DNA of 30,616 bases from NCBI GenBank assembly GCA_022496205.1, contig WTXD01000139.1, forward strand, positions 1-30,616. Reading direction: 5' to 3'. A program made the translations under genes and the position numbers. Positions 1,804-25,200 of this stretch are shown here, piece by piece. The notes under the pieces are model-generated. The model ran no database searches. It saw only the letters and a program-made list of their open reading frames with translations, and was not told the origin of the DNA. Source of the stretch: Gloeopeniophorella convolvens. Lineage: Eukaryota; Basidiomycota; Agaricomycetes; Russulales. How positions within the stretch are numbered: position 1 is the first letter of the stretch; the number at the start of each line of letters is the position of its first letter.

Positions 1804-1853
1804 GTGCGGTCCCTTAGCATGCATGTACAGGATAGCGCAAGCTATGAAGTCTG

Positions 1854-2338: not shown

Positions 2339-2343
2339 GTCTG

Positions 2344-3592
2344 GCATCAGCGGATGGGTCACCTAGCCTATGGTACCCTGGAACACTATGTAGAGCCTAC
2401 AGTTACTGGCTTTACTGTGAACAGTGCCTCGGAAGTCCCCGCAACTCCCTGTGTTGGCTGCCAACTTGGCAAGTCACACAGACAGGAGTTCCCCAGTTCT
2501 TACAAAAGGGCAACTCGTCCCTTTGAGGTCGTACATACAGACCTTGTAGGAAAAATGCAGACGCAGTCTCTCCAATGTCACTAGTACATTGCAACGTTCA
2601 TAGATGACTACAGCAGTCACGCTGTAGTGTACTACCTTAAAACCAAGGACGGATTCAGTAAAGCCCTTACTGAGTACTTGGCGTGGGGGGAAACCCAAAT
2701 GTCTAGTAAACTCAAGGTGCTACACTCCGACCGAGGTGGAGAATACATGAACGGTACTGTTGAGGACTTGCTGAAGCAGAGGGGGATAGAGCACTATACC
2801 ACGATGCCTCACTCATTGCAGCAAAATGGTAGAGCCAAGCGATTCAATCGCACAATCATGGATAAGGCACTCGCAATGCTTCATGCAAGTGGTCTTTCCA
2901 ACGGCTTTTGGGAATATGCAGTAGCAACTGCGGTACATGTCTACAACCGTTCCCCTATCAGACGTCTGCAATGGCGCACACCTGTTGAGCTCTGGGGACT
3001 TAGTCACCCCCTGGATGTCTCATACTTCCGCATTTTTGGATGCAGGGCATATGTACATGTCCCTAAGGATGGACGGAAGAAGCTGGATGCTAAGGCATTC
3101 CCAGCAACATTCATCGGGTACGAGCCTGGTAGTAAAGGATACCGGCTTTGGAATGGGTGTACCCACTCAGTCGTAGTATCTCGCGATATGATATTCAATG
3201 AAACTGTCTTCCCTTCCAGGCAGGCTGTTGAGCCAGCACCTGCCACAGATGTCCCACCACCCTTTGAACCTTTTTATGTGGAGGTTCCCTACGTCGTCCC
3301 GGCTGTAGTGGAGGCACAAAACGCAAGGCCTCCCATGCCACCAGTACCACCACCTGCTCCCTCTCCACCTTCTACGCCAAAGAAGGAGCAGAAACAAGAC
3401 CCATCAGCATTTGTAACACCACCCACTCGCCCACGCAGCGCACCATCTACCCCTACAAGAGTTCCGGTCGGAAGAGAACTTGCCAATCCGGAAGAAGAGT
3501 CTTCCCCTCCTGAAACTCCCACTCCTTCTAGACGTCCTTCCCCCACTCCTGAACCAGAGGGGGACATGGCCACGCGGCAGGACATTCTTTAG
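2344..3592 (+). pseudogene. Copia integrase segment, catalytic Glu replaced by Lys
   Basis: The GAG-pre-integrase motif WHQRMGHL begins at the inserted LTR's target site, followed by CVGCQLGK and the integrase core (HTDLVG, FIDDYS, LHSDRGGEY). An in-frame TAG at 2582-2584 interrupts it. In Copia integrases the third catalytic residue lies in a QQNG-A-ERFNRT context, 35 residues after the second Asp. Here it reads QQNGRAKRFNRT, with AAG (Lys) at 2837-2839 at exactly that spacing, so the enzyme would be inactive. A Pro-rich linker follows, ending at the in-frame TAG at 3590-3592. Confidence 0.9.
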
Positions 3593-5343
3593 GAGATTGC
3601 TGGAGTTCGGCGCAGCACTAGAGTTAGCAGGCCTAATCCACACTATGCCAACCCTAATAATGCTGCCTGGAATCTGAGAACCGGAAGACTCAGAACTCTA
3701 CAGTTACTTGCGGTCGCAATTGGTGCAGACCCTGTAACTTTTGCAGAAGCAATGCAGTCTGCAAATGCGCAAGAGTGGCTAGAGGCGTGTCAATATGAAA
3801 TGGATGCGCTCTCTAAGAATGGTACTTGGGAGTTAGTTGATCTCCCTGCTGGTCGCAAGATAGTAAAATCAAAATGGGTCTTTAAGCTCAAAGCGGATGG
3901 TCGCTATAGAGCTTGGTTGGTCGCAAAGGGATTTACACAAGTCCCTGGGATCAATTACGACGAAACATTTTCTCCAGTTGCCCGGTTTGAGTCTCTTAGA
4001 CTTCTCCTTGCATTGGCCGCGCAGGAAGATTGGGAAATACACCAGATGGACGTCAAGTCGGCGTTCCTTCATAGGGAACTGGATGAGGAAATCTATATGG
4101 AGCAGCCTCATGGTTTCATCATCGTAGGACAGGAGGGCAAAGTCTGTCGCCTGTTAAAGGCCATCTATGGTCTCAAACAAGCCTCCCGCACATGGAACTT
4201 GCAGTTCCATGGAGTTCTGGTGGAACTCGGCTTTAAGTGGATGTACTCTGATGCAGGAGTATATGTGCTCTATCGTTCAGAGAATGGCACAAAGTTATAT
4301 GTTGTCATTATACTCTATGTGGACGATATCACACTCATGGGGAATTCCCTTGTGAAAGTCATCAGGATTAAAACCCTGTTGAGCAAGCGCTATGAAATGA
4401 CGGATTTGGGAGAAATCCAGTCATACCTGGGCATTCGCATCACTCACGATCATTCCAGAAGGCGCATCGAGATTGACCAAACTGGTTATATCTTGAGTAA
4501 AGTTGCTCAGTTTGACTTGCGGAGCACAAAAACGCCCGCAACTCCCTTGCCAGCCGGTGCCGACATGCACCTTGTAAAATATACAGGTGAAGCAACTATT
4601 GCGGAACAAGGATACTTCCAGTCCTTGATCGGCAGTTTGCTGTACTGCAACTCGGAACTCGTCCAGATATCTCTTTTGCGGTGGGGAGACTGGCGCAATA
4701 CGCCGCAAATCCCTCTAAAGACCATATAAGGCTAGCAAATTATGTTATGGCGTATCTTAATGGTACTGCAGACTATGCGCTATGCTATAATGGCACGTCG
4801 AAGAGTTGGCTTAGCGGCTACTCTGATTCCTCTCTGGCAGACCAGCCAGACGATTACCACTCTACGTCCAGTTATGTATTCTTGCTATGCAATGGTGCAA
4901 TCTCTTGGTCTTCGCGCAAGCAAAAGACTATTGCCCAGAGTACTACACATGCAGAGTACATGGCCATGACTGATGCCTCTAACCAGGCTCAGTGGTATCG
5001 GAGCTTCTTCATGGAGCTTGAGTACGACATTGAGGATCCCGCGATCCCACTTCACGGTGATAATAAAGGTGCCATTGATTTGGCGTTAAATCCTGTCACT
5101 GGGAAGCGATCCAAACATATTGCTATCAAGCATCATGTTATACGGGAATATGTTGAACAAGGTGTCATTGAATTGGTGCGCACTCGCACTGAGGACATGG
5201 TCGCCGACGGCTTCACAAAATCCCTGCCAAAGGATAACCTGTGGCTGCTCAATGAGCGCATGGGCATTGTAGTGAGACAGTCTGGATCATGGGGGGATGT
5301 TGAGACGGACAGGACTCAGGACAGGAAGGACGTCTCTGATTAG
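3593..5343 (+). pseudogene. Copia reverse transcriptase and RNase H segment, frameshifted
   Basis: Reading continues in the integrase frame from 3593. The RT_Ty1 domain shows the early motif NGTWELVDLP, the palm motif QMDVKSAFLHREL and the catalytic YVDD near 4315-4326. Near 4650 a one-base difference shifts the frame: the downstream PDISFAVGRLAQYAANPSK motif continues in the next frame up to 5343. The RNase H part has GYSDSSLAD, SRKQKTIAQST-HAEY and HGDNKGAI, with the SKHI-IKHH-IRE block before the end. Transcription would be from the missing 5' LTR. Confidence 0.92.
5289..5297 (+). other. Polypurine tract of the Copia element
   Basis: The purine-rich run ATGGGGGGA directly precedes the TGTTGAG that opens the 3' LTR. 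This is the usual position of the plus-strand primer. It lies inside the last codons of the RNase H frame, so coding and LTR sequence overlap to 5343. Confidence 0.7.
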
Positions 5344-7382: not shown

Positions 7383-7718
7383 ATGCGTCTTCTGTCTCTG
7401 CTCATCGTCTGCCTGGCAGTCGTCGTCAATGCGTCTCCAATCCAGGGCAATGACGGTATTTATTTCGTCCAGTCTCCTTAAGTGGCTTACCTGACATCTG
7501 TAACCTCAGTGCTGGGTCATATCGCGCGTACGCCCCAGTCCCAGAAGGGTGCTGACTGGAGGCGCACCGCTGAGGACATCAAGCGCGACCCCCAGTCCCA
7601 GAAGGGTGCTGACTGGAGGCGCACCGCTGAGGACATCAAGCGCGACCCCCAGTCCCAGAAGGGTGCTGACTGGAGGCGCACCGCTGAGGATATCAAGCGC
7701 GATGACTTGCTGGACTGA
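7383..7718 (+). CDS. Secreted Kex2-processed repeat precursor peptide, candidate RiPP precursor
   Basis: Two exons, 7383-7455 and 7510-7718, are joined by a 54-bp GT..AG intron in phase 1 and give 93 residues. Residues 1-17 form a signal peptide (MRLLSLLIVCLAVVVNA, likely cleaved after Ala17). A short pro-region SPIQGNDVLGHIAR follows. Three tandem repeats come next, the second and third being DPQSQKGADWRRTAEDIKR and the first starting Thr instead of Asp, and then the tail DDLLD. Each repeat ends in Lys-Arg, a Kex2 site; the pro-region ends in Ala-Arg at the matching position. Trp-Arg-Arg inside each unit is a second dibasic site. Trp is the only aromatic residue in the repeats. The layout matches fungal Kex2-processed repeat proteins and ustiloxin/dikaritin precursors. 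No CaaX end is present, so it is not a basidiomycete mating pheromone. The mature product is an inference. Confidence 0.85.
7530..7700 (+). repeat. Three 57-bp tandem repeats in the precursor gene
   Basis: Copies lie at 7530-7586, 7587-7643 and 7644-7700. Copies 2 and 3 differ by one synonymous base (GAC versus GAT for the Asp of EDIKR). Copy 1 differs from copy 2 only in its first codon (ACG instead of GAC). Such uniformity, including third positions, points to recent unit duplication or gene conversion. Confidence 0.97.
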
Positions 7719-8657
7719 GCAGTGTATTAGCCGTGCGTACACTCATGTCTGTCCTTGGTTTGTCCCCGCTCGATTGTGCTGATAAGGAATGTAGGTAGAG
7801 ACGGATCCGACGATGCTCTAGCCAATGTGTTGATGATGGTATCCTGACGGTAGATGTAGGACGGCTCATGTATCGTTTGCTCTTGTGTCCCTGTGGATGG
7901 CGTTCCGTCCTTAGTGCATAGAAGCAGCTAGTATACATGGAGTATGTATAAACACACGTATTTCTGATGTATTCAGTGGCCGAAAGTTTGATGCGCTCGA
8001 CCTCAAGAAAGGAACCGGCGGACGTGCGCTGCATGCAGCGTACCGTCACTACCATGACAGTATCGCCATTCCCTTTAGTGGATTTGTAACATGGTCCTGT
8101 CAGCCGATTGGAGCCTTCAAGGCGGCGAGATCGCGAACTGGGGAGCCATTGAGTGCATTGCTAGTCACTCGAGTGTCCACGTGTACGAATCAATTCAGTT
8201 CGTACATCATAGGCAGGAAGCTGCGGGTGGGTGGGGCATATTGATGAGGCCGCGGAGACGACTGGAATGGCAAGGCATCGAAGGCAAGGGCCCAATGGGC
8301 TAGCTGGCAATACGAACAAAAGCGGCCCGCAGACGACACCGACACCGACAACCAGTATTACAGTGATGTTAGAAGAGCTGACTGTCATGACCAAGCGAGC
8401 AGACGAGCAAAACAAGCAAGCGTCCAGTGTGAGGACCCAAGAACAAAACGCACCACAGCGTGCGCACACCGCGCATCGTAAGCAACGAACAGAACAGGAA
8501 AAGCGGGAATTTGAGGGGAAATCTGAATCGGTTGTCATCATAAGTGAAGTCAAGTGAAGCCAATGCATGCAGAGCGCGATAATACGTATGTATGTATGTA
8601 TGTATGTATGTAGTCGTAGGTTATCAAAGCACGGAAACGCAACAGACATGAGAGCCA
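7719..8657. other. Intergenic between convergent genes, with a GTAT microsatellite
   Basis: This stretch holds the 3' side of the precursor gene and of the Barentsz-like gene. A run of about seven GTAT units lies at 8586-8613. An open frame at 8231-8557 has low complexity and no recognisable domain, and I do not call it a gene. Confidence 0.6.
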
Positions 8658-11084
8658 CTACTGGTAGTACGCCCCCGGCGCGGGCGCGCCGCCACTTCGC
8701 GGATCCCCATATGCATCGTACTCCATGAACGCCGGCGCATACGCAGGCGCGCCGTACCCCTCCTGCACCGGCGCACTGTACCCATAATACGGCGGCTGTG
8801 CGTATGCTGCGTAACCCATCATTGCACCCGGCACAGGAGCCGGCGGAACCTCGGGAGGCGGGCTCGGGTAGAACTCCTGCGGTGGGTGCGCCGCTGCGGC
8901 AGGCGTGAACGCGGGAGCGGAGATGCTCGCGCGCAACGCGGACGAGCGGTGGGTGCGCGCGGCCGCCGTCGCATCGTCCCGTGCATCCGGCCGGCGAATC
9001 TCGATGCGGGAGCTCTGGCGTGGTGGGGCAAAGAGTGCAGGGTCGGGCGACGGGTGTGGATGGTGGTGCGGGGTGTGTGTATTCGCGTGCGCGTGCATAG
9101 GCGGCGGGTACGGCATCATATACACGGGAGTCGACACCTGCGCAGGCGCCGGGAGGTACACGGGGCGACCAGTAGCGAGCTCGTAAGGGATGCCGTGCGC
9201 GTCCAGTGCAATACCCGGCGGCAACGCAGGCGCCGATACGGGGGCGTAGGTGTACGGCGAGGCGTAACTCGGAGCAGGAGCGGGCTGTGTGAAGGCTGTC
9301 TGTAAGTGCGGGGGCGGAGAGCGCCAGAGGAGCCCGCCTTCAGGCGCGGGAGCAGAATGTGGGACCGGGGCAGGGGGAGAAGGTGGCGTGACGCCGCTCG
9401 ACGTGCTTGCAGGAGGATTGGCTTGCGCGGGTGTCAGGAGGGGGATGACAGTGGGGGGAGGGGGGTCGCGCAACTTGAAGGCGTCGTCAGCGGGAGGCTC
9501 GGACGGTATTGCTGATTGCTCTTCGATGGCGATGTGTAACTTGGGCGGTGACGCAGGCTTGGCCATAGGGATGGATACGGGGATTGGCAGTTGAGGCGGC
9601 ACTGGCGCTTCTGCCGGCGCCGGTGCCGGAAGGGTGGGTTCATGCAGGGAAGATGAAGGTACAGCAACGGGTATGACGGGGCGATGCTCGACGGTCTCGG
9701 GCTTGAACTGAGCACGTGGCAGGGACACAGTGAATACCAACTCGCCCTCTTCACGCTCCACCGCACGAGGTGGCGTTGGGGCACGGGGCACATGTACTCG
9801 AGGCAACGTCTGCACAATGGTCTCAGGGTTTGATCCGGAGAGCTTGACACGGAACGCTGCACCGTGACCAGGGCGAGGACGTAGAGCAGGGTCCGAGTAG
9901 AGAAAGAGCTCGTGGTGTTTTGTCCATGGTCGCTCCGGCTTCACCAGGAACCATGTACGAGACGATGGCGAAGATGGCGAGTCTGCAGAGGGCGTGAAGC
10001 TTGCCCGCGGAGAGAACCTGCCCCTGACGAAGCCTCGTCCTCGGAATTGGAAGCCGCCACGTCCCCCGCGAGCACCGACGACAGAGCCCTGCTCTTGACG
10101 CTGCTGAAAGTGTGTGCGCTGTTCCTCGCGACGTTTCATCTCTTCAAAACCGTCGTGTGTCCATTGGCGGTCCACTGGAAGCACTTCCTCTTGCGATGAC
10201 GGCACCTCTCCAGCTGAGGGATCTTCCGCGCCAACATGAGCGCCTCCGCGCCCGCGCCCTCGACCGCGCCCCCGCATGCCGAAACCACGACCCCGGATGC
10301 CACCCTGCCAACGCCCACGCCACCAACCGGAGAGGCTGCGCAGATCCTTATCAAGTAGGCGGTCGTCGTGGCCCCAGAACTCGCCAACAGTCGGGACGTA
10401 TGACGGATCGTTTTCAAGCCGCTCTTGGTAAGCCTGCCGCGCCGACTGCCCGCGAGGATGTGTCGCCGGCGGCCCTGCAGGCTCCGGCTCGGCTGGCACG
10501 GTGGAGGGGCCGGGAGAGGCGGGCGCAGCAGATGGTTCGGAAGGAGGAGGGGAGGTTGACGGAGGGACTGCAGGCGCGGAAACGCGCCGACGGGTGTCCG
10601 GACGCTTTAATTTGGGCGCCTTGAGCGCTGCCAGGGCGCGGGGTGCCTTGGTAGGGATAGTGCTGGCATCGAGATCGGCAAAGTCAATGACTGGGAGGTC
10701 GGCGTCGCCGTTGGCCGCCTCGTCCGCAACCATCTCGGACCAGTTCACGGATGCAGCAAGTGAAGGCGCATGACCACTGTCTTCCTTGCTCCCACCATTG
10801 ACAGCGGGCGGGGTGGAGCTGGGGCTGAGGACAGTAGCGTGTTCATTGGACGGGGCATCCTCGGATGCGGGCTCCGTCTCAGAGTCGGTGTCCGAGTCGA
10901 GGGAGGACTGGTCATCGTCATCGGTGTCCGAATCTGATCGCGCTTCACGCTCGATCTCGTCGTCGCTGTAGATTCCGTTGGCAGCCCTCCCTCGCCTCCT
11001 AGCGATCCTAGTCTTGGACGATGCTGGGCGGGGCGCAGAAGATGACGTCGTTTTTGTGGCTTTGTGGGTGGTGGGAGCAGGCAT
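8658..11084 (-). CDS. Barentsz/CASC3-like exon-junction-complex protein (Btz domain)
   Basis: A single exon encodes 808 residues from the ATG at 11084; a longer frame would need a GTG start. The N-terminal region is acidic and Ser/Asp-rich. Around residues 226-245 it reads DPSYVPTVGEFWGHDDR, the signature of the Btz (CASC3/Barentsz eIF4AIII-binding) domain, and the partner block WTHDGFEEM follows near 308-316. Between them are RG-rich repeats (about 261-281), with more at about 350, typical of RNA-binding tails. The remainder is Pro/Ala/Tyr-rich and disordered. Known members clamp eIF4A3 on spliced mRNA in the exon junction complex and affect mRNA localisation and decay. It looks like a housekeeping gene and gives no support to the peptide cluster around it. 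Confidence 0.82.
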   Translation of the reverse strand: MPAPTTHKATKTTSSSAPRPASSKTRIARRRGRAANGIYSDDEIEREARSDSDTDDDDQSSLDSDTDSETEPASEDAPSNEHATVLSPSSTPPAVNGGSKEDSGHAPSLAASVNWSEMVADEAANGDADLPVIDFADLDASTIPTKAPRALAALKAPKLKRPDTRRRVSAPAVPPSTSPPPSEPSAAPASPGPSTVPAEPEPAGPPATHPRGQSARQAYQERLENDPSYVPTVGEFWGHDDRLLDKDLRSLSGWWRGRWQGGIRGRGFGMRGRGRGRGRGGAHVGAEDPSAGEVPSSQEEVLPVDRQWTHDGFEEMKRREEQRTHFQQRQEQGSVVGARGGRGGFQFRGRGFVRGRFSPRASFTPSADSPSSPSSRTWFLVKPERPWTKHHELFLYSDPALRPRPGHGAAFRVKLSGSNPETIVQTLPRVHVPRAPTPPRAVEREEGELVFTVSLPRAQFKPETVEHRPVIPVAVPSSSLHEPTLPAPAPAEAPVPPQLPIPVSIPMAKPASPPKLHIAIEEQSAIPSEPPADDAFKLRDPPPPTVIPLLTPAQANPPASTSSGVTPPSPPAPVPHSAPAPEGGLLWRSPPPHLQTAFTQPAPAPSYASPYTYAPVSAPALPPGIALDAHGIPYELATGRPVYLPAPAQVSTPVYMMPYPPPMHAHANTHTPHHHPHPSPDPALFAPPRQSSRIEIRRPDARDDATAAARTHRSSALRASISAPAFTPAAAAHPPQEFYPSPPPEVPPAPVPGAMMGYAAYAQPPYYGYSAPVQEGYGAPAYAPAFMEYDAYGDPRSGGAPAPGAYYQ

Positions 11085-11461
11085 TCTGTGGGGTTCAAAA
11101 ATCTCAGTTTGCACCGAGGAAAAAGGCTGTCGGGGGCCTAGCTACCAAGATCTTTTTCCTTCTGAGGGTAATGTAGGGTGGAAGCAGTGTCTGTTGGAAG
11201 GGCAAACGGGATGGTAGGAACGGCAAAAGGAAAGATGGAGGGACAAGAGCGAGCAGGTCAAGGACGACGTTGTGGAACACAGCACCAAGTAACAAAGCCA
11301 CGCTCGGCAAGCGCCGATCCATTCGGGCTCCGCGTTGCCTGACTCATCGTCGTCTCGGTCCCTTGACAGCCCCTTGACCCACTCAGCCTGCTCGGAACGG
11401 TCCTCCTCTCATCCGGCCCAATAATAATATCTGGCAGAGGCGTCGTGTATTGTTCCCGGAC
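11085..11461. other. Intergenic, upstream region of the Btz-domain gene
   Basis: It separates the start of the Btz-domain gene from the end of the epoxide hydrolase gene on the same strand. The part next to 11085 should hold the leader and promoter of the Btz gene. No clear TATA box was seen. Confidence 0.5.
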
Positions 11462-12805
11462 TCACAACTTGGCCCGGATCGGACGCGGTATGTTCAGCCC
11501 CGACAGCCAATCCAGCACCCCTGCCACAACCTCCTCCTTCGCGTGCAACATCACCCAGTGTCTCGCATTCGGCAGCTTTATCTCCTGAAGCTGTGGAATC
11601 CCTTCTCGTATCTTCGCAAGCATCCCAGGCGTGGACGTCGCGTCCTTTTCGCCCCATATGTGTAGAACTGGCAGATCGGGTGATGGGTATTCCGGCAGCC
11701 CCGCAGCTGATAATGATGGCAACGATGCGTCAGCACGCATCATTTCATTCGTCGTGAGACAAGCCAGCTGCCAGACCAACCTTGTTCCTCCTCGAAACGA
11801 ATCTTGCTTGTGCGGTAGTATGACAGCGGACCGTTCATCTTGCCCATCTGCGACGCAACGTACTGGAGCTCCTGAAGGCGCGCGTGTATCAGTATCATAG
11901 CGCACGCATCGATGAAGGGACGAACAGCTTGTGTCATGTCGCCCTTGTTCGTGGGCACTACGCTCCCCGAATTGACGATCGCCTCCCTCAGGTTATTGTC
12001 CACTGCAAAATTCTTCTTAGGTTTGTCGAACCCATACATCAATCGCATGAATCGCTCGAACTGTGTTTAGAGGTCAATACGACGGATCCAAAAGGCATTT
12101 GAGTGCGCACATTAACCTCGATTTCCTTCGTGGCCTCCTCGCTAGCGAAATAGAGCTGGTAGGAGTAATTCGGAACTTTTTTGACGACGTTCTCGAGGGG
12201 AATGTACTTTTTCGTTGGAGGGGCGAACGGAACAGAGAGCCTGGAAAAAATGGATGAAGGGGAGCACCACAGTAGACGATGAGTGCTTACAATGCCAGTG
12301 CAAGTAGTCTGTCTGGTTGCCACAGCGCAAACCGACCTGCAGTGTACGAACCCCAATCATGCCCAACGACGATCTGCCACCGGCGTCGAGTCGTGAGCGT
12401 AGACACTGCGGAAAATGAACGCTTACAGCCTTTGGTACACCGACAAGATTGAGGAGTGCAGCTAGATCCGCACAAAGCTTCTTGGTTGAATATTCCTCTG
12501 CTGCCTGAGGCTTGTCTGTCCCGCCATATCCAAGCATGTCGGGGACAATAACGCGGTACCCAGCGCGAACCCAAGGGCCAATCACGTGTCTCCAGCCATA
12601 CCTGACACCCTCTTGTCGGAAATAATGACCGTGCAGAGGATAAGAGTACACACCATATGTCAGGGAACCCGTGCACACAGAGGATAGTCGGTGCGGACGC
12701 GTGATCACGGTACCCCACAGGCATCTGGTCGACAAAATGGTATGTCCTGCCGGTGGAGAGTCGCTCGGTGCGGTGGTTGAAGCTAGCTGGGTCTGCAGGA
12801 TTCAT
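11462..12805 (-). CDS. Epoxide hydrolase, alpha/beta-hydrolase fold
   Basis: Seven exons join to 334 residues: 12805-12654, 12601-12427, 12373-12291, 12240-12117, 12060-11926, 11871-11781 and 11706-11462. All introns are 49-75 bp with GT..AG ends and the phases agree. The HGFP oxyanion motif is at residues 45-48, the nucleophile elbow GHDWGS places Asp115, the acid is Asp275 in WGEKDA, and the general base is His303 in NARHWV. Cap-domain tyrosines are present in SYYRTSK. The length and triad are complete, so it should be active. Members open epoxides to vicinal diols; the substrate is unknown. It is transcribed away from the UstY genes' 3' side, and a role in the peptide pathway is possible but unsupported. 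Confidence 0.88.
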
Positions 12806-13323
12806 TCTCCAGGCAACGGTGGGTGCAACAGAGGAAGTCTGGGTGCATTGGTGGCGACGTTGACTGTGAATAGGTACGTCGCGTGACCGGTGACCCGACT
12901 CGCCCGTATCGCAAGAAGCAGCGCTCGGCCCGGCCGGGTGCGGGGAAATCATATGCATCTGCCACTGGTTCCGCATCTGGCAGTGGCCACCGTTGCTTTG
13001 CAGCCTCTGCTGCTCGGAATCACGACAACTTCAAGTAGTGTTCAATTACCTGCACTCTGAACTGGCGCTTCCGGCGACGAAGTTGAATCGCTGTTAGTTC
13101 CTCAATGCGCCCATCCCACATACAACCAAGAACGCCATGCCAGCTTGAATGCGGCCAGTGTCCAGTAGCCTTACCCTCCTCGGAGACACTGGCACTGCTC
13201 GGTCGACGTGGCTTGAAGGTTATCGCGGTCGCGTCAAGGTTCGGGCTCCAGGTGTACACATTTTGTCGCCACAATGGTTCCTGACGCCATGCGGCAAACA
13301 GTCAATGCAAACGATGGATGGCT
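12806..13323. other. Intergenic, promoter side of the epoxide hydrolase gene
   Basis: Some 518 bp lie between the hydrolase start and the 3' end of the first UstY gene. An 84-codon minus-strand open frame here shows no domain, no signal peptide and no plausible splice partner. Confidence 0.5.
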
Positions 13324-14038
13324 CTATGACTCTGTGGTGTTCTCCGCGGGCGATGGCTCAGTCAGTCTCCGATGCATGTCCGGTGTCCACTTGACATACT
13401 GCTCCTCCTGCCAGTCCCTGACCTGCTTCCAGTCCCTGCACGTATGCACCGTCGCCTCGCCCTGCGCCGTCATGGCCCCGTTCGCCAGCAACTTGTCCGT
13501 GCCGACCTCCTCGAGCGTGAGGTCCGCGCCGCACAGGATTGCATTGCGGAGGTACTGGAAGCAGTGTTGTGTGTGCTCGGAGCCATCATCTCCGTTGACG
13601 ATGAGCGCACGGATGTGCCCTAGGCAGTGTATCTCGTGCCACATGCTCACGCCGTAGGGGTAGTACGACCCGCCGAGGAAGACGTAACCGAAATCAGGCG
13701 GTTTGATCGCGTTCCATTGCGCTGCGCTCTCCACACCATCGATCGGATAATGGTCGATATCGTCATGGAACTCCATGTTCACGGTGCGCAGCTTGATGGG
13801 CAACTCGCGAGGGTGGTCATGACCAAGGTATGCTGTGGCTGTTGAGCAGAGAGGACACAGAAAATCAGAGGTGAGACTTACTGTGGTGCCGCTCTGCAGG
13901 CCACGAATGCCGGATCTGCGCGGTCAAGGCGATAAAGTTGATGCTCAAGGAGAGTATAAACGTCACTACAAGCGTTGTCGTAGAGAGACGGGACAAAAAG
14001 CCGGGCTTGTTCAAGTCAAACGCAGATACAAACTTCAT
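13324..14038 (-). CDS. UstY-family (DUF3328) protein, copy 1
   Basis: Exons 14038-13882 and 13832-13324 with a 49-bp phase-1 intron give 221 residues. The start is the ATG at 14038; the frame extends upstream only through a TTG. A transmembrane helix spans residues 20-41 after a short cytosolic N-terminus. Then come YLGHDHPRELP at 54-64 and two HxxHC motifs, WHEIHC at 117-122 and HTQHC at 139-143, followed by LRNAILCGADLTLEE, all hallmarks of the UstYa/UstYb family. Family members are secretory-pathway oxidases or cyclases that crosslink ribosomal peptides in ustiloxin, asperipin and related pathways. All key residues are present. Its closest relative in the window is the next gene, in tandem on the same strand. 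Substrate assignment to the 7.4-kb precursor is inference. Confidence 0.92.
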
Positions 14039-14495
14039 GCCAAAGGAAGAGCTGAGAGGTGGGTGACGGCGATTCTGGGTGGTCAAGAGCAAGGCACCTA
14101 ATACTCTCCCTTTCCTACTCGCCCGCGGCTGTTGCTATTAATCTGGGCTCCCGGGCTCCAACAAACGTGATGAGCGCGCGTGCAGAGCCTAGGGTTCATG
14201 GTCAACCAAATTGAGCATGGCATTAATTTTGGATCGTCTCTATCAGTCTTCGTAGAAGACGGCGCCATCATCCATGTAATTCGCATTTGCAGTAATCCGC
14301 AACGCTGGCGCGAATGCGGGCGCCTACAAACGGTAACGGCGCCAGATGGGTCAGCCCCAACTCACCTCACGGTCATCCCCGATCCCCGCGATGCCCGTCT
14401 GCCCCCTTGCGAGGCCCAGGCGGTCCCCCAAAACCACACAACAAGGTTCGGAACCACACGCAGAGTCGAACGACCAAGGACAATGTATTTTTCCT
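14039..14495. other. Intergenic between the two UstY genes
   Basis: It holds the promoter of copy 1 and the 3' side of copy 2. ATTAATAG near 14136 on the minus strand could act as a core promoter, but no clear TATAAA is seen. No coding content is supported. Confidence 0.5.
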
Positions 14496-15249
14496 CTACG
14501 AAACAGGGATGTCCTCAGGGGTTGCCAGAACGGTCGCATTATCTACACCCTCGACCAGCTCCCGCATCCCCGGTGTCCATTTGTCATACTCAGCGGCCAA
14601 GTAATCGTAGACCTGTCGCCAGTCGCGGCACGTATGCGTCGCGTGTGTCCGCGGAGCCACGGTGCCAACCCCGCTCGCGGCGCGCATGCTCATACCGCCC
14701 TCCTCGAGCGTCGTATCTGCGTTGCAGAGGATCGCCTCGCGCAGATAGTTGAAGCAGTGCTGCAGGTGGATACCAGGCATCTGACCCTTGATAAAGTTGG
14801 CGCGGATGTGTGCGAGGCAATGTATCTGGTGCCACATCGCGACGCCATACGGCAGCTTGCCCTTCCCGAGGAAAACGTGCCCGTTGCCCGGCGGACGGAT
14901 GGTGTTCCACTCGGTCCACGAGCGCACGGTGTGGTCGACTGCGTAGTGCTCGGTGTCATTTTCGAAAACGGCGTTGACGGTGCCCACTTTCAACGGCAGC
15001 TCGCGTGGGTGGTCGCGGCCGATGTATGCTGAGCACCGGGTAAGCTATCCATAGTCCGCCAAGCGCGCGCACGAGCCAAGACTTACTGTATTCCCGAGTC
15101 GGAGGAGAGATGTGTCGGACTTGGACGACGATGAGAACAACATTGACAAGGAGAGTGAGGAGCAGCGCAGAGTAGAACAGGATGGACGTGGCCTTGCGCC
15201 CGCGAGGCGTTAAAGGAGACTCGCCGATGGGAGACGGGGGAAGCTTCAT
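14496..15249 (-). CDS. UstY-family (DUF3328) protein, copy 2
   Basis: Exons 15249-15087 and 15028-14496 with a 58-bp phase-1 intron give 231 residues. The intron interrupts the same Thr codon, just before YIG-DHPRELP, as in copy 1, which indicates tandem duplication. The transmembrane helix is at residues 22-43. The HxxHC motifs are WHQIHC at 120-125 and HLQHC at 142-146, followed by LREAILCNADTTLEE. The protein is predicted to sit in an ER/Golgi membrane with its catalytic domain in the lumen, where Kex2-type precursors also travel. Two UstY copies often act together in known pathways (UstYa with UstYb). The gene is divergent from the membrane paralog at 15840 and shares a promoter region with it. 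Confidence 0.92.
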
Positions 15250-15839
15250 GATGGTGTGCGATGGAGTGCAACAGCTCGCTGGACTTGCGATGAATCAAAT
15301 GGGCGCGTGCGAGCTCCTCAATGCCTCATAGCGGGAAACCCATCTCGTAAACCTTGAGAGTGAGTTAACCGGCGCAATGAACGTACCGTACCTCGCGAGC
15401 CGCCAGTATACATAAGTAGACGCCGGCATAGCGAGGTTCGGCGCATGCCGGCATATGGGCGGGAATCGGATATCGAGATTCCGGATCTAGCTTGAGGAGC
15501 GAGGCGCGGAACCTCGCGGACTTGGCACCCGCCTCGCAAATCAGTGGAAGCTCCCGGTGCCAGGACTTTGGGCCGCAGATCTCGCGTCTGTTCCCGTCGG
15601 TACTGTGAGCGCCGCATTGCGACGTTAAACGGTGGGCCTAATCGAACCAAACTGGTCCCCCTCGGGATGCACCTTGAGACGGTTTGAGAACGCCCCAGGC
15701 TCGAGCGAGGCCCAAGGCTGATCCGCGTGGTGCGCCGCACTCAGCTCAGGGCCCTGTGGTTATATTGAGGACTTCTCTTATGTAGTACTAACCGCTCCAG
15801 TGCGTGAGAGTGGCGACTTCCATCGAGACCACCGCGATC
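15250..15839. promoter_or_regulatory. Shared divergent promoter of UstY copy 2 and membrane paralog 1, with GCGAGG motifs
   Basis: The 590-bp gap drives genes in both directions. GCGAGGTTCGGCGC at 15431-15444 and GCGCGGAACCTCGC at 15504-15517 are inverted copies matching at 13 of 14 positions. Further GCGAGG/CCTCGC words lie at 15391, 15499, 15532 and 15705, and the palindrome CTCGCGAG is at 15392-15399. Such clustering suggests sites for a pathway regulator. This is inference from base pattern only, in GC-rich DNA. Confidence 0.5.
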
Positions 15840-16713
15840 ATGTCCACCCGCCCCAACGAAGAAGAGTACGAAGCGCTCAACCAAGATGCAGAGGAACCTT
15901 CCTCTCCAGACGATGCAGAGCTCAAGAATAAACCCTCGTCGGTCATCACGCCTCTCGTCTTCTGGACTCTCTGCGGCATGGTGTTGCTCACGGTGCTGAA
16001 CTCTACCCTCTTCCCTCTTACCGTTTTGAAGACCGCCTCGCACTACAATTGGAAGAACCTCCATTTCGTCGATTCCACCCCTGGGCTAGAGGAGGTGCGC
16101 GAGAAACAAAACCTCACTACGTATATGTACTCGCAGCCATCGCGAATTTCTCAAGTCAGCGCATACGAGCACACCCGCAAAGTCGTCACGTTCGACGAAG
16201 GACGCACCGTTCTCGTAAATCCGCACGTAAGTCTTCGTCACTGCTCTGCCACCTAGAAAGTCACCCTAACACATGAGCAGGTGAACAGCGTGCTGCAGTT
16301 CGCCGTCCCTGATGGATATTCCCCGACATGCTCTCTCGCATTCTACCGCCCGCCGATCACCGTCACGTCAGAACTATTCGGCGCGCTCAAAGACGTCGAG
16401 GTGTGGGAGGTTCCTGAAGCCGCTTTAGCAACGCATGGCCCGCGCATTGAGTATGCGGACGCAGAGGAGGCGCTCCTGGTGATGCTCGACCTCACCAAGC
16501 AGACACAACTCATGACTACACGTGAGTTCCCCTGCAAGGGCCGCGAACAGATGGCCTTTGAGATTCGGTGCCCAAAGGAGGCTGGGTGCAGCATCCAGTA
16601 CGCGGCGACGATTGCGCCGAACTCACGCATTGGTAAGCGCTTTCCGGGAGATGCATCTTCAAAGACATCAGGCTTATCTCTATTGCGACAGGCTTCCAAT
16701 TGCGCAGAGTGTG
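15840..16713 (+). CDS. Single-pass membrane protein of an unrecognised family, paralog 1
   Basis: Exons 15840-16226, 16281-16632 and 16691-16713 (introns 54 and 58 bp, phases 0 and 1) give 253 residues. The start is the ATG at 15840; upstream in-frame starts are GTG only. An acidic N-terminus of about 35 residues precedes a helix at 36-60, and the rest would be lumenal or extracellular. Conserved with the other two paralogs are a first Cys (PTCSLAFYRP), EVWEVP, a FPC block, the EIRCPKEAGC block and a C-terminal GF-L-RR (here GFQLRRV). It lacks the HxxHC motifs of UstY despite the same topology. It is the most diverged of the three. I do not recognise the family; function unknown. Confidence 0.8.
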
Positions 16714-18512
16714 AACCAGAATGGGGTTGTCTATGGGTCTTGATCTTTGGTGTATCTTGTTGTTCATTTGATAGCTCCATGTAAATTGGGACCGTGTGAT
16801 TGTCGTGCGCGTGACCCATCGTCTAGCGTGCGATTGCTGGCTCGTTGTGGTAGCTCTGCGGGCGCCGTCTGCACAGGATTGGTGACATAGGAATGTAGAC
16901 CCTCCATCCTGACTTTACGGAAAAGCCGCTGATCCCCTTCAGGCAGATACTGCCAGCTGGAGCCGACACATGCTCCGAGGGTATTTCATAACCTGTAGCC
17001 AGCTTAGTCCCAACGTGACCGGGGTAAATGGTTCCACTGTCATCTTAACAAAAATGGATGAGACGCACGCTCGACTTCCGTGAGTTTGGTGGAGGAATCC
17101 GATGACTGCCCTCAACCTCTGATTCTGCAGCGAAGCAAGACCTATCAGATGGTCACATGAATTATCCGTGATTTCGTGTAGTTCCCGAATGCTCAGGAGA
17201 ACGGCATGTTGAGGTCCCATAGCACTTCGTCCACGCATACTCCATCATCAAAGACGAAGCCTTATCAGATATGCGGATCTGTGGCCGGCGTCGTGTCTAC
17301 AGGCGTGTTTCCACTTGTCACCAATCAGTCCGGCTCTGTCCGCGGGAGTTTTCCTAGGGCCAGCTGATGTACGCACTCAGAACTGGTACTGCATTACTTA
17401 CTCTTGAGCTGCACCGGCATGTTCAGATGCAGGCTCGGGCCGGGCGTTATGCGGAGAGTCGAGAAGAAGGGTGAGGTGCTGTTGAACAGTTCAAGCTAAG
17501 GGATATGGTGTCACACGCACACGCTTGGAACGGGCCATTGTAACTTGATTGTAACCTCACGCACTACACTGCGCAGCCTGCCACGCGGTCCCGTAGGCGC
17601 TAAGTGAAGTTCAGGCAAGGCCGAGGGCGCAGCAATGAGCGACGGGGAAATTGAGACGAAACCTCCCCTCCCAGACCGAAGAGCGGAGACAGCGGGCTGC
17701 GTGTTACACTGAAGGAAACGGGCGGTACAAGCATCGGAGCTTTACTTAGCTATTAAAAGACAGGCGCGCTCACTTCTACTGGACCGCCCGCACGGCGCAC
17801 GCACACAAGGCTAGACCGCCTGAGAACTTCAAGGAAGCCCAGCAGGGGCAGACCGCAGCAGCGCTGAACCTTGGGCCACGCGACGCCGCGCCTAAGTACC
17901 AGCATCTCACGCGGTGGCGTTTGCTGTGTGCATTTGGGCTGGTTGCGCCGACGTGGTAAGCGGGGAGCAAAGCCTGTTGGATGGTCGGACAAAATTTAAA
18001 GCTGAAACGCACCTGGATGATAGAGAGGCCAGCGCCATATCTAGGCGCTAGTCTCCGAGACGCGAGCTGGGGAAACGAGCCGCTCACGAAAGTCCAAGGG
18101 GATAAGTACCAGCGCACAGAGGAGGGCAACGCGGGGGCCAGAATCGACGCACAGTTCAATGCTTGGTTCAACGCCATGCCCGAAGCAAGCACTGGCGGCG
18201 GCAGCTTGGAATTTGAAACGCCGCCGGCAGAGCCCGATTCGGGGAATAATGCACAGCGGTCATAAAGTCGGGCATCAGGGGGCTCAGCTGGGCTCAGGCG
18301 CCACCGGTGAATATCGAATGATCAGGCCTGTGCATATGAAATTCAAAGTCGAAGGACAACTCGGGCCTGACGCTCGGGTGTTGTAAGTAGACAATAGTAA
18401 AACTATGGTATGATCATGAAGCCAACGTGTATACTGTGTTGCTCATTTCAACGCATGCAATTGAACATGACAGCTCCACCAGAAGTCGACGTCAAGCCTA
18501 GTACTATTCGGC
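16714..18512. other. 1.8-kb intergenic stretch, nothing supported
   Basis: The gap lies between the ends of two convergent paralogs. Open frames near 17.75-18.27 kb are compositionally biased and overlap on both strands without domains. I found no UstY-type HxxHC block, no repeat precursor and no transposon ends here. Confidence 0.5.
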
Positions 18513-19425
18513 TCACATCTGCCGTCTCAGGAGATCAAAACCTAGATATGAAGTCGTCAGATCCATTTCGGAGACACAGATAAGAAAGCTAACCCATCTT
18601 GGGTAGGAAGCCTACGTGCATATACCGAGCGAGGCACCCAGCTTTTGGGCAACGCATCTCGACAGTAAGGGTGTCTTCTTGGGGACAGGCAAACTCCTCT
18701 GTCGTAGAATTGGGCCATGCAGTAAAGTCGACAACACCCAGCAACTCCCCAGAGACTGGGCGGGTGTTCCACGACAGGGTGTCGAAGTCGAGGTCCGCCG
18801 CACGCGTGCCAGGTGGGAGTCGAGCAGCGGGGTTAGGACCAATGATGGACCACACTTCGATTTGGCTGACGTCACCCTCTATGTGGAGATCTTTCTGTCG
18901 AATCCCATACTTAGGAGGACCACGCCAAGAGATAGCACAGGTTGCTGTCCCAGTTCGGGGGACGCGGAAGCGTATTATAGTCGTGTCCTGTGGGCTTATG
19001 AGTAGCTGTGCTGCGTAGATGCTTGAATCCCCGCTTACATTCTCGGATATGTGCACGTGTGGGGCCACGCCGTACACCCCGTTTTTGATCGCTTGATTGA
19101 GCCGTGCGATGTTCTCTGGCCCTTGGTAGAGCCACCGCGTGGGAGGCATAGACTCTGCGACTCGGTCAAGTCCCAGGCGTTGGTCAAGGTATGGCATAGC
19201 TGCAAGCTCAGCGTCCGTCATGGCCTTTGGTGAAAAGGTGAAAGGGAGGAGGGAGAGGTTGAGGATGGAGAGGTAGCCGACCATTAAAATGCAAGAGACG
19301 TATAGCATCCAACCCCACCCCAAGCTTGTGGGGGCAACTGGAAGAGCAAGGTCATCTTCGCTGGCGTCGGTATGATCCACTTCGAGCTGAGTGTATCGAG
19401 CGTTGGAACCTCTGGTGGAGAACAT
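18513..19425 (-). CDS. Single-pass membrane protein of an unrecognised family, paralog 2
   Basis: Exons 19425-19039, 18987-18594 and 18541-18513 give 269 residues. The first intron (19038-18988, 51 bp) has no stop and keeps the frame, so a naive reading would translate it. Comparison with the paralogs, which splice at the same phase-0 point, shows it should be removed. The helix is at residues 38-62, followed by LSLLPF and MTDAELAAMPYLDQRLGLDR, closely matching paralog 3. Conserved Cys are in ATCAISW, EEFACPQ, and EMRCPKAGC, with EVWSIIGP between. The tail exon encodes GFDLLRRQM. It is divergent from paralog 3. Function is unknown. Confidence 0.8.
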
Positions 19426-20044
19426 GGGGGGTAGGACAGAACAAGTGGTGGCTGCGGGTCGAGCGAGCGATAGCGTTTCAGACCCCGGCTCACGACGGTC
19501 CGGGGCAGATCTCTGGTAACTTGTATGGAAAGACGGATCTCCCACATTCCCCATCTGGGCCAATAGCGGGTGGGGATGTGGGCCGGTGTGGGGTAGTCGG
19601 GGTCCCTGAGTCAGACATGAGGTGAGGCGGCGAGGCGGCGAAGAGAATTCACCTTCCAATCTTCAAACTGACACCTCCGGCTGGTGAAGTACTGAACGAT
19701 GAATCCCACACCACCATATAGCCGGTCCCAGAGGAACGTTCTGTCCGAATGGGCTTGGGACGAGCGGTGCGCGCTTGCTGTGGCGTTTTCAAAGTTGCAC
19801 TGCGATCACGAGCTCGTAGATTACAGCCATCTGTTACGCGTGAGTCATGGACGAAGAATCAGAAGAGGGAGAATTTATACCCGTGGTTGGCCTAGGACGG
19901 GCTCGCGAATCCACGAGCGCTCTCGGTGGAGATAGAGCACATGAGCGGGTGATTCACGGAGGATATACCCGGTCTCGATAAGCTCGAATCACCTTCACTT
20001 CAAACCTGACATTGCGCCGCGCCTTGACAAGCTTGAATCTGAGC
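19426..20044. promoter_or_regulatory. Shared divergent promoter of membrane paralogs 2 and 3
   Basis: This 619-bp gap separates two divergently transcribed paralogs. CATATAG (about 19715) and AATTTATAC (about 19871) are AT-rich candidates for core promoters. The GCGAGG inverted repeat of the other divergent promoter was not found here. Confidence 0.45.
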
Positions 20045-20927
20045 ATGATCAGCCCAGATAGCGACGAACGCGCGCCACTCACCGGTCACAAATTCGATGG
20101 TGGCGACGAGGACTTTGTCGACATCCCATCAAAGCCTACTGGTCTCTTTCCGTGGAGGGGGCTGCTCGTTTGCTTCGCCGTAGCTTGCCTCTCCTTCATC
20201 AACCTCACCCTACTTCCCTTCAGCCTCACGTCTAAGAAGCTCACCGATGCACAAATGGCCGCTCTTCCCTTCCCTGATCAAGACGTAGGGCTGGACAGAG
20301 CCGCACAGACCATTCCCATTCCCCCGCGCTACGCATACGAATGGCCTTACAGCGCTACAAGGTTAAGCCGTAAGGCAAAGAACACTGTGTACGGCCGCAG
20401 TACACAGGTATATGTCTCCGTAGAGGTGATCAGCCTTTCTTTGACTCGGGGAAGGGGCTGACGGCGACGATAGGATTCGACCCTGCTGCGCTTCGCCGCT
20501 GACACCATGTCTAATGGGTCCGGGACGTGTGTGCTGTCTTGGCTCCCGCTCTCCGCAGCAGGGACCCAGGCAGCAAACCTGACGATGAAGGGCGACGTTA
20601 CTGACCTCGAGGTCTGGTCCGTATTCCAGCCCGGCCAGGCCGACAGCAGTGGCATCGACTTCGGTACGCTCTCCTGGGGAAGTCGACCATCGGGCGCGGA
20701 GATGCTTGGAGCGCTGAACCTTGATGCGAAGCCGAACTCCACCACTGTAGAGTTCCCGTGTGGGGGACAGTCGAGCCTTGTTATCGAGCTGCGTTGCCAG
20801 CGGGTGGCGTGTCACGTCAGCCTCAATGATCCCGGCTTAAGAACCGGTATGCGTTGCATGTTCTGTTCAAAGTCTTCGATGCTAGATTGGATGGACAGGT
20901 TTTGCATTGGGAAGGCGTCAGGCATAA
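20045..20927 (+). CDS. Single-pass membrane protein of an unrecognised family, paralog 3
   Basis: Exons 20045-20425, 20474-20846 and 20899-20927 (introns 48 and 52 bp, phases 0 and 1) give 260 residues. The first ATG in frame is at 20045. The helix is at 38-60, then LTLLPFSLTSKKLTDAQMAALPF, near-identical in plan to paralog 2. The lumenal part has GTCVLSW, DLEVWSVFQP, EFPCGGQ and ELRCQRVAC, giving four conserved Cys. The tail exon encodes GFALGRRQA. The intron positions and phases are the same as in paralogs 1 and 2. The gene sits between paralog 2 and the methyltransferase. Function is unknown; topology and position suggest a secretory-pathway partner of the UstY proteins. Confidence 0.82.
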
Positions 20928-21320
20928 TTGCCAGCGGATAGTATTCGTTTCAAGTGGTGAGCGTTGAACGGAGGATTTCGCAGCGGGACTGCATGGGCGG
21001 GCCGTTTCGGCCGTAGAGCACGTGATACAACATACTATGAGCGTTGTCGGCCTGGCCCTTGCGCCGACTCGTCGGATGGCACTCTGCTTCAATACCACCG
21101 TATTCTCTCTGTCGTTGCCACTATCATATATTCTTCCATCATGATTCTATCAAATCAAAACCCTTTGGTTGTCATCCTGCATGGTGAAAACTCTCTGAGA
21201 CGCCAAGCTAGCGTTGGGAGATCATGTAGCGAGTCCAGAAGCTGAAGCTCGCGCGATCTGTGGTGGAACACTGCCAGATTGAAGGATACCAGTTGGGCAC
21301 AGTACATGAATCTGCACATA
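20928..21320. other. Intergenic between convergent genes
   Basis: It carries the 3' sides of paralog 3 and of the methyltransferase. No reading frame with support was seen. Confidence 0.5.
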
Positions 21321-22226
21321 CTAATTCTGGGTGAAGCTAGCTACCCATACATCCATTGACCGGACGCCCTTCAAACCCCCGACCACCTCGAGGGCCGCCA
21401 GCGTCGCCTCCCTCATCGCTACAACAGCACTTCGCTGCCTAACGTCTGCCACGAATGTTTCTATTTCCATCTTGAACTTCGCGCTCCTCACTAAATCAAC
21501 CTCCCACCTCCCATCAAGTATGTTATCTGCGGGTACTACCGTCCTCTCGCTCACGAACGTCCATTCAGCTGCAGTCGCAGCCTCTTTGATGGCAGCTGGC
21601 GTTGCAGCGTAGCGGATGTTCGAATGGGGGTTTGTCTTCTGTGACTCCAGCGCGGCCTGCGTCAATGCAGCGAGGATGTGAGGGTGGGCAGCAGGGTTTG
21701 ATGCCTTGAGGCTCCATTCTGCGATGAAGATGGAACGCGCGCGCTTCACGAGCGCGGAGAGCGTCGCTGCCAGCACGGAAGGGTCGTGGAAATACCAGAT
21801 GCATAGAGCGAGCACCGCAACGTCGTACGTTGTTTCGTCGCTTTCGAGGAACGCGAGAGGGTCGGCTTGTTTCCACGTTATCCGCGAGCCGAGGCGGCCC
21901 GAAGAGATGTGCTCTTGCGCCTGTCCAAGCGTAAAAGGCGAACCTTGCAGGGGTGAGCGGGCGCCGAGCGCTGGACCATGCGACATACCATAGTCAAGGG
22001 GTCCAGGATCAACGGCAGTAACATGACCACCAGGGCCAACGATCTCAGCAAGTACGGTCGTCGAATCGCCTTGACCACACCCAACCTCCAGAACGCGGGC
22101 ACCGCGTTTGATAGTTGCATGCGACAAGATCGCAATGCGGTGCTCGGTCGACTGCAACTGAGATGGGAAGCCTTTAGGCCCGTACAGGCTCTGAGAAGCG
22201 ATATCCTGAACGTTGAGGGTGGTCAT
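21321..22226 (-). CDS. Class I SAM-dependent methyltransferase
   Basis: A single exon encodes 301 residues from the ATG at 22226. Motif I VLEVGCGQGD is at residues 45-54, the acidic ribose-binding motif AVDPG at 71-75, and YDVAVLALCIWYFHDP near 134-149 fits motif IV and its surroundings. No signal peptide is present, so it should be cytosolic. It resembles small-molecule methyltransferases rather than rRNA or protein enzymes, but its substrate is not evident. Ustiloxin-type pathways include a methyltransferase (UstM), which makes it a plausible tailoring enzyme. A DNA transposon begins 30 bp upstream of the start codon, so its native promoter now lies beyond 28617, 6.4 kb away. Confidence 0.85.
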   Translation of the reverse strand: MTTLNVQDIASQSLYGPKGFPSQLQSTEHRIAILSHATIKRGARVLEVGCGQGDSTTVLAEIVGPGGHVTAVDPGPLDYGMSHGPALGARSPLQGSPFTLGQAQEHISSGRLGSRITWKQADPLAFLESDETTYDVAVLALCIWYFHDPSVLAATLSALVKRARSIFIAEWSLKASNPAAHPHILAALTQAALESQKTNPHSNIRYAATPAAIKEAATAAEWTFVSERTVVPADNILDGRWEVDLVRSAKFKMEIETFVADVRQRSAVVAMREATLAALEVVGGLKGVRSMDVWVASFTQN

Positions 22227-22255: not shown

Positions 22256-25200
22256 CAAGGGGGTCTCGAACCTGCAGTCAGAAACCGGGGGTCGCATTTT
22301 CTCAATACCGATAGGGGGGTTGGACTAACTAGGTATGTAAGCAGGCACGTGATTAGTCATCAGGGACATCTACCAAATAAGGAAAGATAAGATTAAGACA
22401 CGTCGCTATCTGTGTTTCCCTCGCGCGCTGGGAACTTCTCCCAACTCCCGCGTTCAACCCACGCCCGCCAGCCACTCTCCTTCACTTGCACCATCCCTCT
22501 ACAGACGTCCGATATCAACGACGTCTCTGCTTTTTGCTGGCCGTTGCTTTGCATGAAGTGCAGGTCCAGCCTTTTGCCGGCTCCACAAGTTCAACACATT
22601 CCAAGTGAAACTAAGGGCGGGATTTGGGTGGGATCAGAGCGAAGAGGACACCGGGTGAGCACTGTTACTGACTGAAGAAAAACTCACACTCACCCATATC
22701 GTATCGCAACCTCCCCACGCACACATGATCGAGTCTTTGGCACCCGCAACGGCCTCATCCCCACATATACAGTGCCGAACCATTGCCAGGTCAAGTCCCT
22801 TGCGCTTCCTCCTTGTCCGCGTTGGCTCGCCTCCACTTGCCGAATCTCCTCCACCCGCCGGCTCTCCGGGGTGAGATGTGCCGTGTGCTTCACACGCATT
22901 GTTCGTGTGCTCTATATCTGCAGCTTCCTTGCTCGATGGATCACCTACGCGTATTGTGAGTACAAGAAACACCATCCTACAACGCGAGCAGCTTACCGGT
23001 TTCAAGTCCGCGACTGGGTTCACCCCCAGGCGCATCTTCCATCAAGGGTTGCGCATCCTCGATAGTCCCCGTTTCGACTACAAGAGTACCGGTCCCCAAC
23101 GCTTCTGGAGCGCAGTCAGAGGCTGACTCCAAAGTCAGATCGCAGTGCTCGGGCTCTCGCGCGGGCGGAGACATCTTGCAGGTATCCTCGGCACCTATCG
23201 GAGGTATCTCCGAGTCTTCATAGGGACCGTGGAGAATGTCATCATAGGGGAGATCTGCCACACTCGTTGGCAGCGCATCCTCTTCTTCCGACACCGGATC
23301 TGAGTACAGATAGTCGCCGGTGCTTTCGGCATCTTCGTCTTGTGAGCTGACCTTCAATGTCGATCTAGATACAAGTCAACCTTGATTCGCCGGAGGAAGC
23401 AGTCCACCAGACGCACTGTGCCGCATTTCGGGAGCTGTGTGCCTCGGAGATCACCAGGTTACATACATCTTGCTTCTTCTTCCGTGGCTCAACCTGCTTA
23501 GCACGGGCTTTCCAGACACGGTCCATCTCGTGCAGTTCATTGTCGTCAAGCCTCCATAGGTCTTCATAGGTCCCTGCAGGCACAGACGGATGGACGCGTG
23601 CGAAGTGAGCTTGGATATTGTAGCGCCATACAGCAGGTGAGTTGGAAGGACACAGTGGACAAATTAGCGGAACGTTACTACAAGGCGAGGAAGCGGTGGA
23701 CTTTGCGGCGACGGCATACGAGAATTTGACAAAGTTGGCACATGTACTCCGTTCGCGTAGGATTCCGAGGTTTCGGTTTTGTCCTTTTGTCTTTTGAGAA
23801 AGATTTGACACCCGCCCCACGACCGTAGGCAAAGTCCACAGGGCTCGATTGTACGGTCTACTGAGGAATCGTGGAGGATGTGGCTGCCAACGTGTTCCAG
23901 GATCCGCTGGGCGTTTGAGGCATCGAATCGGAATTCGGGAAGGCACTGTGGGCAGCAGAGAGACATCGATTCGTGAACATCGTGCCTCCCTTCTGCAACA
24001 AAGCAAGCCTTCCCTAGACGAAACGTCACATGATGCCTGGTGTCCAGGATATGAAGAGCGTACCTGCTGGCTCACGGTATGGGAAATCGTTGCTCGGCTT
24101 GATAGATGGTACAACACGCGCATGCGTGTACATCACCCGGTCGTGAAGTGTCGAAGCCAATGCAACTAAAGTAGGACTGTCGAGAATGAAGAATGTGCTG
24201 GCCCCACCCGGGGCTTCACGCATCCCCATTAATGGGTTGATCGGATGAATGAGAGCACCCGGGACCGTGAGCGTGATAGGGAGCAGGCGCGAAGAGCGCC
24301 AGTCACATTTCTTCGAGGGATCGTCAGCGTCAGTCGCCGGGATGAGACTGATCACTTGATAGGAAATTTGAACCGCTTTCTCGTGTAGAACGGAAACGAG
24401 AACTTCTTCTACTGCCTGTGAGTTGAACTTGATGTTATTGATCTCGCCAAGGCATAGGAAGACGTGGCCATCGCAGCGAACAAGTGAAGCTACGGGGTCT
24501 GTGACTGAAATTCGCGGACCCTCCTGGAGATGAGCGAGGGGTCCAATGGAAGCGCTGCCGCCGTTCATGTACCTTGGCTCCTGCTGGACTCGGCGGAGAC
24601 GATCGGTTGAGCTAGAAGTCGTCTTGTACTTGAAGCGTTGCGCAAGCGCGCGTGCCTTACTGATTATCTCGCCTTTGCCATTGACGTCGATTTGATTCGA
24701 AAATGAAGCTCCCTTTGATGTTGCTGAAGTTTCGCCCCACTCGGCCTGCGAGGCAGCATCTTCCAAAGTGCGTAAACCCTCACCCATAAGATCGCTCTCT
24801 ACGGTGCTATCGGCAAGGGTGACAGGCACCTCAGGTTCCTCGATGTTGTCGTCCATGAGAGCGAGGACGCTGGTGTCCGAAGACTCCCCAGTTAGCAGGG
24901 GCTTCACCATAAGCGTTCCGAAGGGTGCCAAGATCGATGCGCCTGGTGTTTCGTCGATTGTACGAAGCTGTTCTGTTGTAAACGGGAATTTGTCTTCAAT
25001 GAAGCGTCGCCCACGCTTCCAGCATGTAGCCAAGGTGACGTCCTGGGGAACGACGCTTCCCCGCCATGCGCGCGGGCTAATATGATCAGCACCATGGACT
25101 GCCTGGGCATCCCTCGTAAGAGTAGGCAGATGTAAGCGCCGTGGTGCTCTGTCCCACTCTGGATGCTTTGCGAGGATATTTGCCACCTCAGTTGTGCCTG

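Follow-up and report, generated by a model that had tools for sequence, protein, structure and literature searches.

The 30,616-bp contig C45 of the wood-dwelling basidiomycete Gloeopeniophorella convolvens (Russulales; assembly 36.7 Mb), analysed here as a whole and called the window below, carries two tandem UstY genes, three genes for paralogous membrane proteins, a methyltransferase gene and a gene for a precursor with Kex2 repeats. This combination raises two questions: (i) which neighbours the UstY proteins work with and (ii) whether the repeat precursor is their substrate. A preliminary description read the locus as a basidiomycete UstY pathway for a ribosomally synthesized and post-translationally modified peptide (RiPP) with a new accessory family. 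The UstY locus stood, and whole-genome searches bore out the accessory family, but membership of the precursor was not supported by its relatives, by a copied block on contig C101 or by a repeat scan. We conclude that the locus is probably a module of UstY (DUF3328) oxidase and But2-like type II membrane partners; a RiPP cluster is not demonstrated. This reading draws on gene content, genome-wide co-location, the copied block and a fold model. The genes concerned are:

13324..14038, minus strand: UstY1, motifs HEIHC/HTQHC intact (PF11807, 74.7 bits; NCBI protein P0011)
14496..15249, minus strand: UstY2, motifs HQIHC/HLQHC intact (PF11807, 66.1 bits)
15840..16714, plus strand: But2-like type II membrane protein 1, paralog family member
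18515..19425, minus strand: But2-like type II membrane protein 2 (NCBI proteins P0001, P0002)
20045..~20846, plus strand: But2-like type II membrane protein 3, paralog family member, 3' end uncertain
21321..22226, minus strand: S-adenosylmethionine (SAM) methyltransferase (Methyltransf_23, PF13489, 37.5 bits)

The tandem UstY pair, the three paralogs and the methyltransferase had all been listed in the preliminary description, and all were found. Both UstY proteins exceed the cut-off of 25 bits for Pfam UstYa (PF11807, DUF3328), and each contains two HxxHC motifs. An N-terminal hydrophobic helix is visible in the UstY sequence and in a low-confidence structure model (pLDDT 49.7); a sequence search found no solved structure related to UstY. 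UstY2 and But2-like protein 1 are encoded head to head, 590 bp from start to start, as are But2-like proteins 2 and 3 (619 bp). From their sequences, the paralogs are predicted to start with an N-terminal tail, followed by a single hydrophobic helix and then by a luminal domain in which cysteines are conserved.

Genes of the two families occur together across the genome. A profile of the paralogs matched weak relatives in other UstY stretches (among fetched loci only), which prompted whole-genome searches with a C370 member, exons from C268, C366 and C267, and paralogs 1 and 2 as queries. Protein queries were used since a six-frame Pfam But2 scan was silent, as were its controls. A But2-like gene was counted if any of the searches gave it an E below 1e-6; duplicate contigs entered the count once, and weak matches on C13 (E 0.09) and C345 (E 0.69) were left out. 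In six-frame searches only the best candidates are scored, which makes the counts lower bounds. We identified at least 13 But2-like genes: three on C45, three on C101, two on C370, and one each on C18, C7, C268, C366 and C267 (equivalent to C350). Twelve of the 13 sit at UstY loci. Outside C45 and C101, six of seven lie 335 to 3472 bp from an UstY match, and zones of 5 kb on either side of all 19 UstY matches make up 0.34% of the genome. The binomial probability of this linkage, ~1e-14, is overstated, as C18, C7 and C370 copy one cassette; four divergent subfamilies remain. From the side of UstY, seven of nine loci have a detected partner (with C101 included, and with C52 and C41 treated as duplicates of places on C366, to which they are 99.6% and 97.9% identical). 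The accessory membrane family is real and extends beyond the window.

The luminal domain gives some indication of what these proteins are. Four cysteines and an N-x-T sequon are retained in the seven relatives aligned. Against the But2 C-terminal domain (PF09792, cut-off 24.2 bits), the window paralogs stay below the cut-off (15.0 bits, 16.3 bits and no match), whereas a C370 paralog reaches 30.9 bits. The window domain is homologous by profile to the subfamily with this But2-scoring member (hhalign 98.4%, E 6.6e-15). Its model matches a jelly roll like that of carbohydrate-binding modules (CBMs), the structural matches being chondroitin-sulfate- and alginate-binding CBMs (8wab and 7vbo; 14% and 9% identity). 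The luminal domain appears But2-like by profile and CBM-like by predicted fold, with carbohydrate binding only a candidate function. Window members resemble PF09792 proteins in this domain but differ in scoring below the cut-off, in having an N-terminal membrane helix and in lying beside UstY.

The window is a variant in its UstY content. Each of the five partner-bearing loci outside C45 and C101 has one intact UstY and one degenerate UstY with HxxK/RC ... LxRHC, instead of two intact proteins; the two partnerless loci have one intact UstY each in the stretch read. A tree was built from five database proteins and 14 reading frames of this genome, most of them pieces of exons (19 sequences in all; C101, C52 and C366:21k were not included). 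In it, the degenerate proteins form one group with support 0.955. The window pair groups with proteins of Artomyces, Heterobasidion and Pluteus, opposite the degenerate clade across a 0.999 split. One Artomyces UstY, P0016, is degenerate differently (QQLQC). The cassette on C18, C7 and C370 comprises an alpha/beta hydrolase (S33 match), a multi-helix gene without Pfam match, the pseudo-UstY, the But2-like gene and the UstY gene; on C370 the hydrolase, multi-helix and But2-like genes are repeated. A conserved small precursor inside the C18 and C370 cassettes was also considered and rejected: two short conserved stretches were found, with unremarkable translations.

The UstY block of the window recurs, collinear and 79-85% identical, at C101:0.25-8.5 kb. 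This block has no match to the precursor (protein or DNA), nor to the DNA of the Btz and hydrolase genes that lie between precursor and UstY in the window. C101 is a decaying copy and as such a weak test of precursor membership; an assembly error is possible. We judged it less likely that C45 and C101 are two haplotypes, given that other duplicate contigs are 97.9-99.6% identical.

How might such a module work? By sequence, UstY and But2-like proteins appear to share a topology of short cytosolic tail, one membrane helix and luminal domain. Because this matching topology coincides with tight linkage, a shared complex in secretory membranes is the simplest reading. UstY copper oxidases and But2-like jelly-roll proteins would then cooperate in Golgi/secretory membranes; the But2-like protein would bind the substrate, present it or stabilise the oxidase. 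The methyltransferase may tailor the product in the cytosol. At the five other loci, the degenerate UstY suggests that active UstY, pseudo-UstY and But2-like protein form a heteromer. The formation of the complex, its location and these roles are our inference.

Several observations weigh against the module. The seventh But2-like gene outside C45 and C101 (C267/C350; L053:4554-5396, minus strand) has no UstY within the 9.4 kb read on C267, and for two UstY loci (C388 and C366:21k/C41) no partner was detected. The loci on C18, C7 and C370 copy one cassette and so are not independent. The fold model of the luminal domain is modest (mean pLDDT 65.7). Of the six genes on C101, four are interrupted by frame changes or a stop in frame (UstY1, UstY2, paralog 1 and the methyltransferase), and the other two are open; the in-frame stop is in the methyltransferase copy, where a new intron is possible. 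Beyond this genome, linkage is seen for one of two listed Artomyces pyxidatus relatives: P0003, like three UstY homologs of that species (P0012, P0013 and P0016), is on a 348,044-bp contig, and we place the four on one contig from this equal size only. For P0006, the other Artomyces relative, the contig measures 243,454 bp, and no UstY on it is among the matches listed. Heterobasidion and Pluteus UstY homologs likewise have no But2-like relative among the matches listed in word-limited searches. Contigs of three other listed relatives (P0004, P0005 and P0007) and of P0008 are shorter than 2 kb and uninformative on linkage.

The second question concerns the repeat precursor. It and the two genes separating it from UstY are:

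7383..7718, plus strand (exons 7383-7455 and 7510-7718): Kex2-repeat precursor, 93 aa, identical to NCBI protein P0009
8658..11084, minus strand: Btz/CASC3-like gene, an unrelated neighbour (PF09405, 38.3 bits)
11462..12805, minus strand: alpha/beta hydrolase with several introns (PF00561, 121.4 bits on a conceptual splice), which from its motif we take to be epoxide-hydrolase-like

The preliminary description was accurate on these three genes and on their order. The precursor has a signal-peptide-like start (by eye) and three 19-aa units, [T/D]PQSQKGADWRRTAEDIKR, bounded by KR and with an internal RR; at the DNA level the 57-bp unit forms a 3.1-copy array (score 333). With a signal peptide (by eye) and repeats separated by KR/RR, it has the features of a Kex2-processed repeat protein (KEP). 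A sister precursor on C359 (P0010) has 11-residue units, [A/T/D]PQSGREDIKR. Relatives retain the upstream region and the signal exon, at 83-90% over ~400 bp on C359 and C383 and at 72-77% over ~200 bp on C352/C250 and C404; C166 resembles the downstream part of the precursor region only. The mature part diverges: C383 looks decayed, and C352 and C404 have short cysteine-containing tails (by eye). Overall, the stretches L048-L050 and L031 outline a secreted-peptide family in which signal exon and promoter are conserved and the mature part varies, some members having Kex2 repeats and others short tails with cysteines (by eye). A partial Btz copy (L031:4121-5490) adjoins the C359 sister precursor, in an arrangement unlike that of the window.

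Could the repeat gene nonetheless encode the substrate? Kex2 would cut after KR/RR, UstY would modify the Trp-containing DPQSQKGADW unit, and the But2-like proteins would be accessories. The precursor is intact, has a signal peptide and three units, and lies 5.6 kb and two genes from UstY1, against an average of 3.09 genes for fungal pairs (PMC7329392). The frame-broken UstY genes of C101, which has no precursor, are consistent with decay in the absence of a substrate. However, the sister precursor lacks Phe, Tyr and Trp, and neither its 159-kb contig C359 nor the contigs of the other relatives (C383, C352/C250, C404 and C166) have an UstY match. Repeat units of P0009 and P0010 contain no Tyr, although a Tyr-containing core, found in 65.6% of UstY-linked KEPs, is usual and not required (PMC7329392). 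When 19 sequences (L029-L045, L047 and the window) plus L052 and L053, some of them not UstY stretches, were scanned for Kex2 repeats, only the window and C359 contained true repeat precursors; the remaining matches were arginine-rich frames. Moreover, UstY is near only 6.1% of basidiomycete KEPs (103 of 1680 Basidiomycota Kex2-repeat genes; Umemura 2020, PMC7329392). We consider the repeat gene an unlikely substrate. Since its relatives are unlinked to UstY and the C101 block lacks a precursor, its position near UstY is probably chance, and it more likely belongs, independently of UstY, to a secreted-peptide family that changes fast.

Alternatively, UstY may act on a small molecule made elsewhere (polyketide, terpenoid or non-ribosomal peptide), which would be tailored by the methyltransferase and possibly also by the product of the epoxide-hydrolase-like gene. 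DUF3328 enzymes do have non-RiPP substrates, in cyclochlorotine and atpenin (PMC12435403, PMC12048977), and both a methyltransferase and a hydrolase are neighbours of the window UstY genes. We nevertheless regard this as improbable: no core synthase was noticed by eye in the window's open reading frame (ORF) list, although no systematic search was made, and the DNA of the hydrolase gene has no match at the copied block. Co-location of UstY and But2-like genes might also be without function, as tandem cassettes copied together in repeat-rich regions. C18, C7 and C370 are indeed plain copies, and a copia element adjoins the window genes. The linkage, however, holds across subfamilies 26-30% identical and in Artomyces, with motifs retained, which makes this explanation very unlikely. 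A module of UstY and But2-like proteins is the reading that we retain.

The splice models used here were made in this analysis and compared with NCBI protein models. Agreement was exact for the precursor (P0009); for UstY1 (P0011, partial) there is a six-base difference at one acceptor. A 17-residue stretch kept in our paralog 2 query is spliced out in P0001 and P0002, and P0001 lacks the N-terminus. No other full-length copy of the Btz gene was found in the DNA search, where a second match spans 8668-9994 only. No tyrosinase, peptidase or transporter was noticed by eye in the window ORF list, and the Pfam searches covered 16 window proteins or frames. The window also contains a Copia-type retrotransposon at 421-4729 (plus strand) with gag, integrase and reverse transcriptase domains, stops between frames and a further frame to 5343. 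At 23365-28195 (minus strand), four long frames (708, 386, 279 and 255 aa) without Pfam match at E 0.01 are possibly an undescribed mobile element.

The window genes share features with several known systems. UstYa/UstYb of ustiloxin and other dikaritins have the same PF11807/DUF3328 domain, two HxxHC motifs and tandem pair, and the membrane helix predicted here. Those pathways differ in that no tyrosinase or dikaritin-like core was noticed in the window, But2-like partners are present and a link to a precursor is unsupported. CctR, a copper-dependent DUF3328 hydroxylase, is similar to the predicted topology and in its HxxHC(x)nHxxHC motif; it is anchored in the membrane, forms a dimer and has a binuclear copper site, and the same is reported for ApnU and AprY (PMC12435403). 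CctR is a homodimer, whereas there are two UstY genes here and intact plus degenerate UstY elsewhere in this genome. Known DUF3328 substrates include peptides and polyketides (PMC12435403, PMC12048977). The co-occurrence of KEP and DUF3328 genes in Basidiomycota is already known: a repeat precursor within 15 genes of DUF3328, as in the window, defines the pairs of Umemura 2020, but the relatives of the window precursor in this genome are unlinked to UstY (PMC7329392). Pleurotus has 16 UstYa-like genes (PMC8893723). In the literature surveyed, as far as accessible, no product or partner of a basidiomycete DUF3328 member is described. We found no description of a But2-like partner family and no published link of But2-like membrane proteins or pseudo-UstY to UstY, preprints and most subscription papers being outside the scope and no search having been aimed at pseudo-UstY.

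A more specific proposal, which we offer as possible though rather doubtful, is a basidiomycete heteromeric UstY system in which an active copper UstY is joined by a conserved pseudo-UstY, and a But2/CBM-like subunit anchored in the membrane chooses the substrate. This substrate may be a glycan or glycopeptide and not a linear repeat peptide. For genome miners, UstY need not mark a repeat-peptide RiPP. DUF3328 enzymes perform hard C-H chemistry, and membrane partners that can be found by position, together with a conserved degenerate UstY, offer a direct, testable route to reconstituting UstY oxidases.
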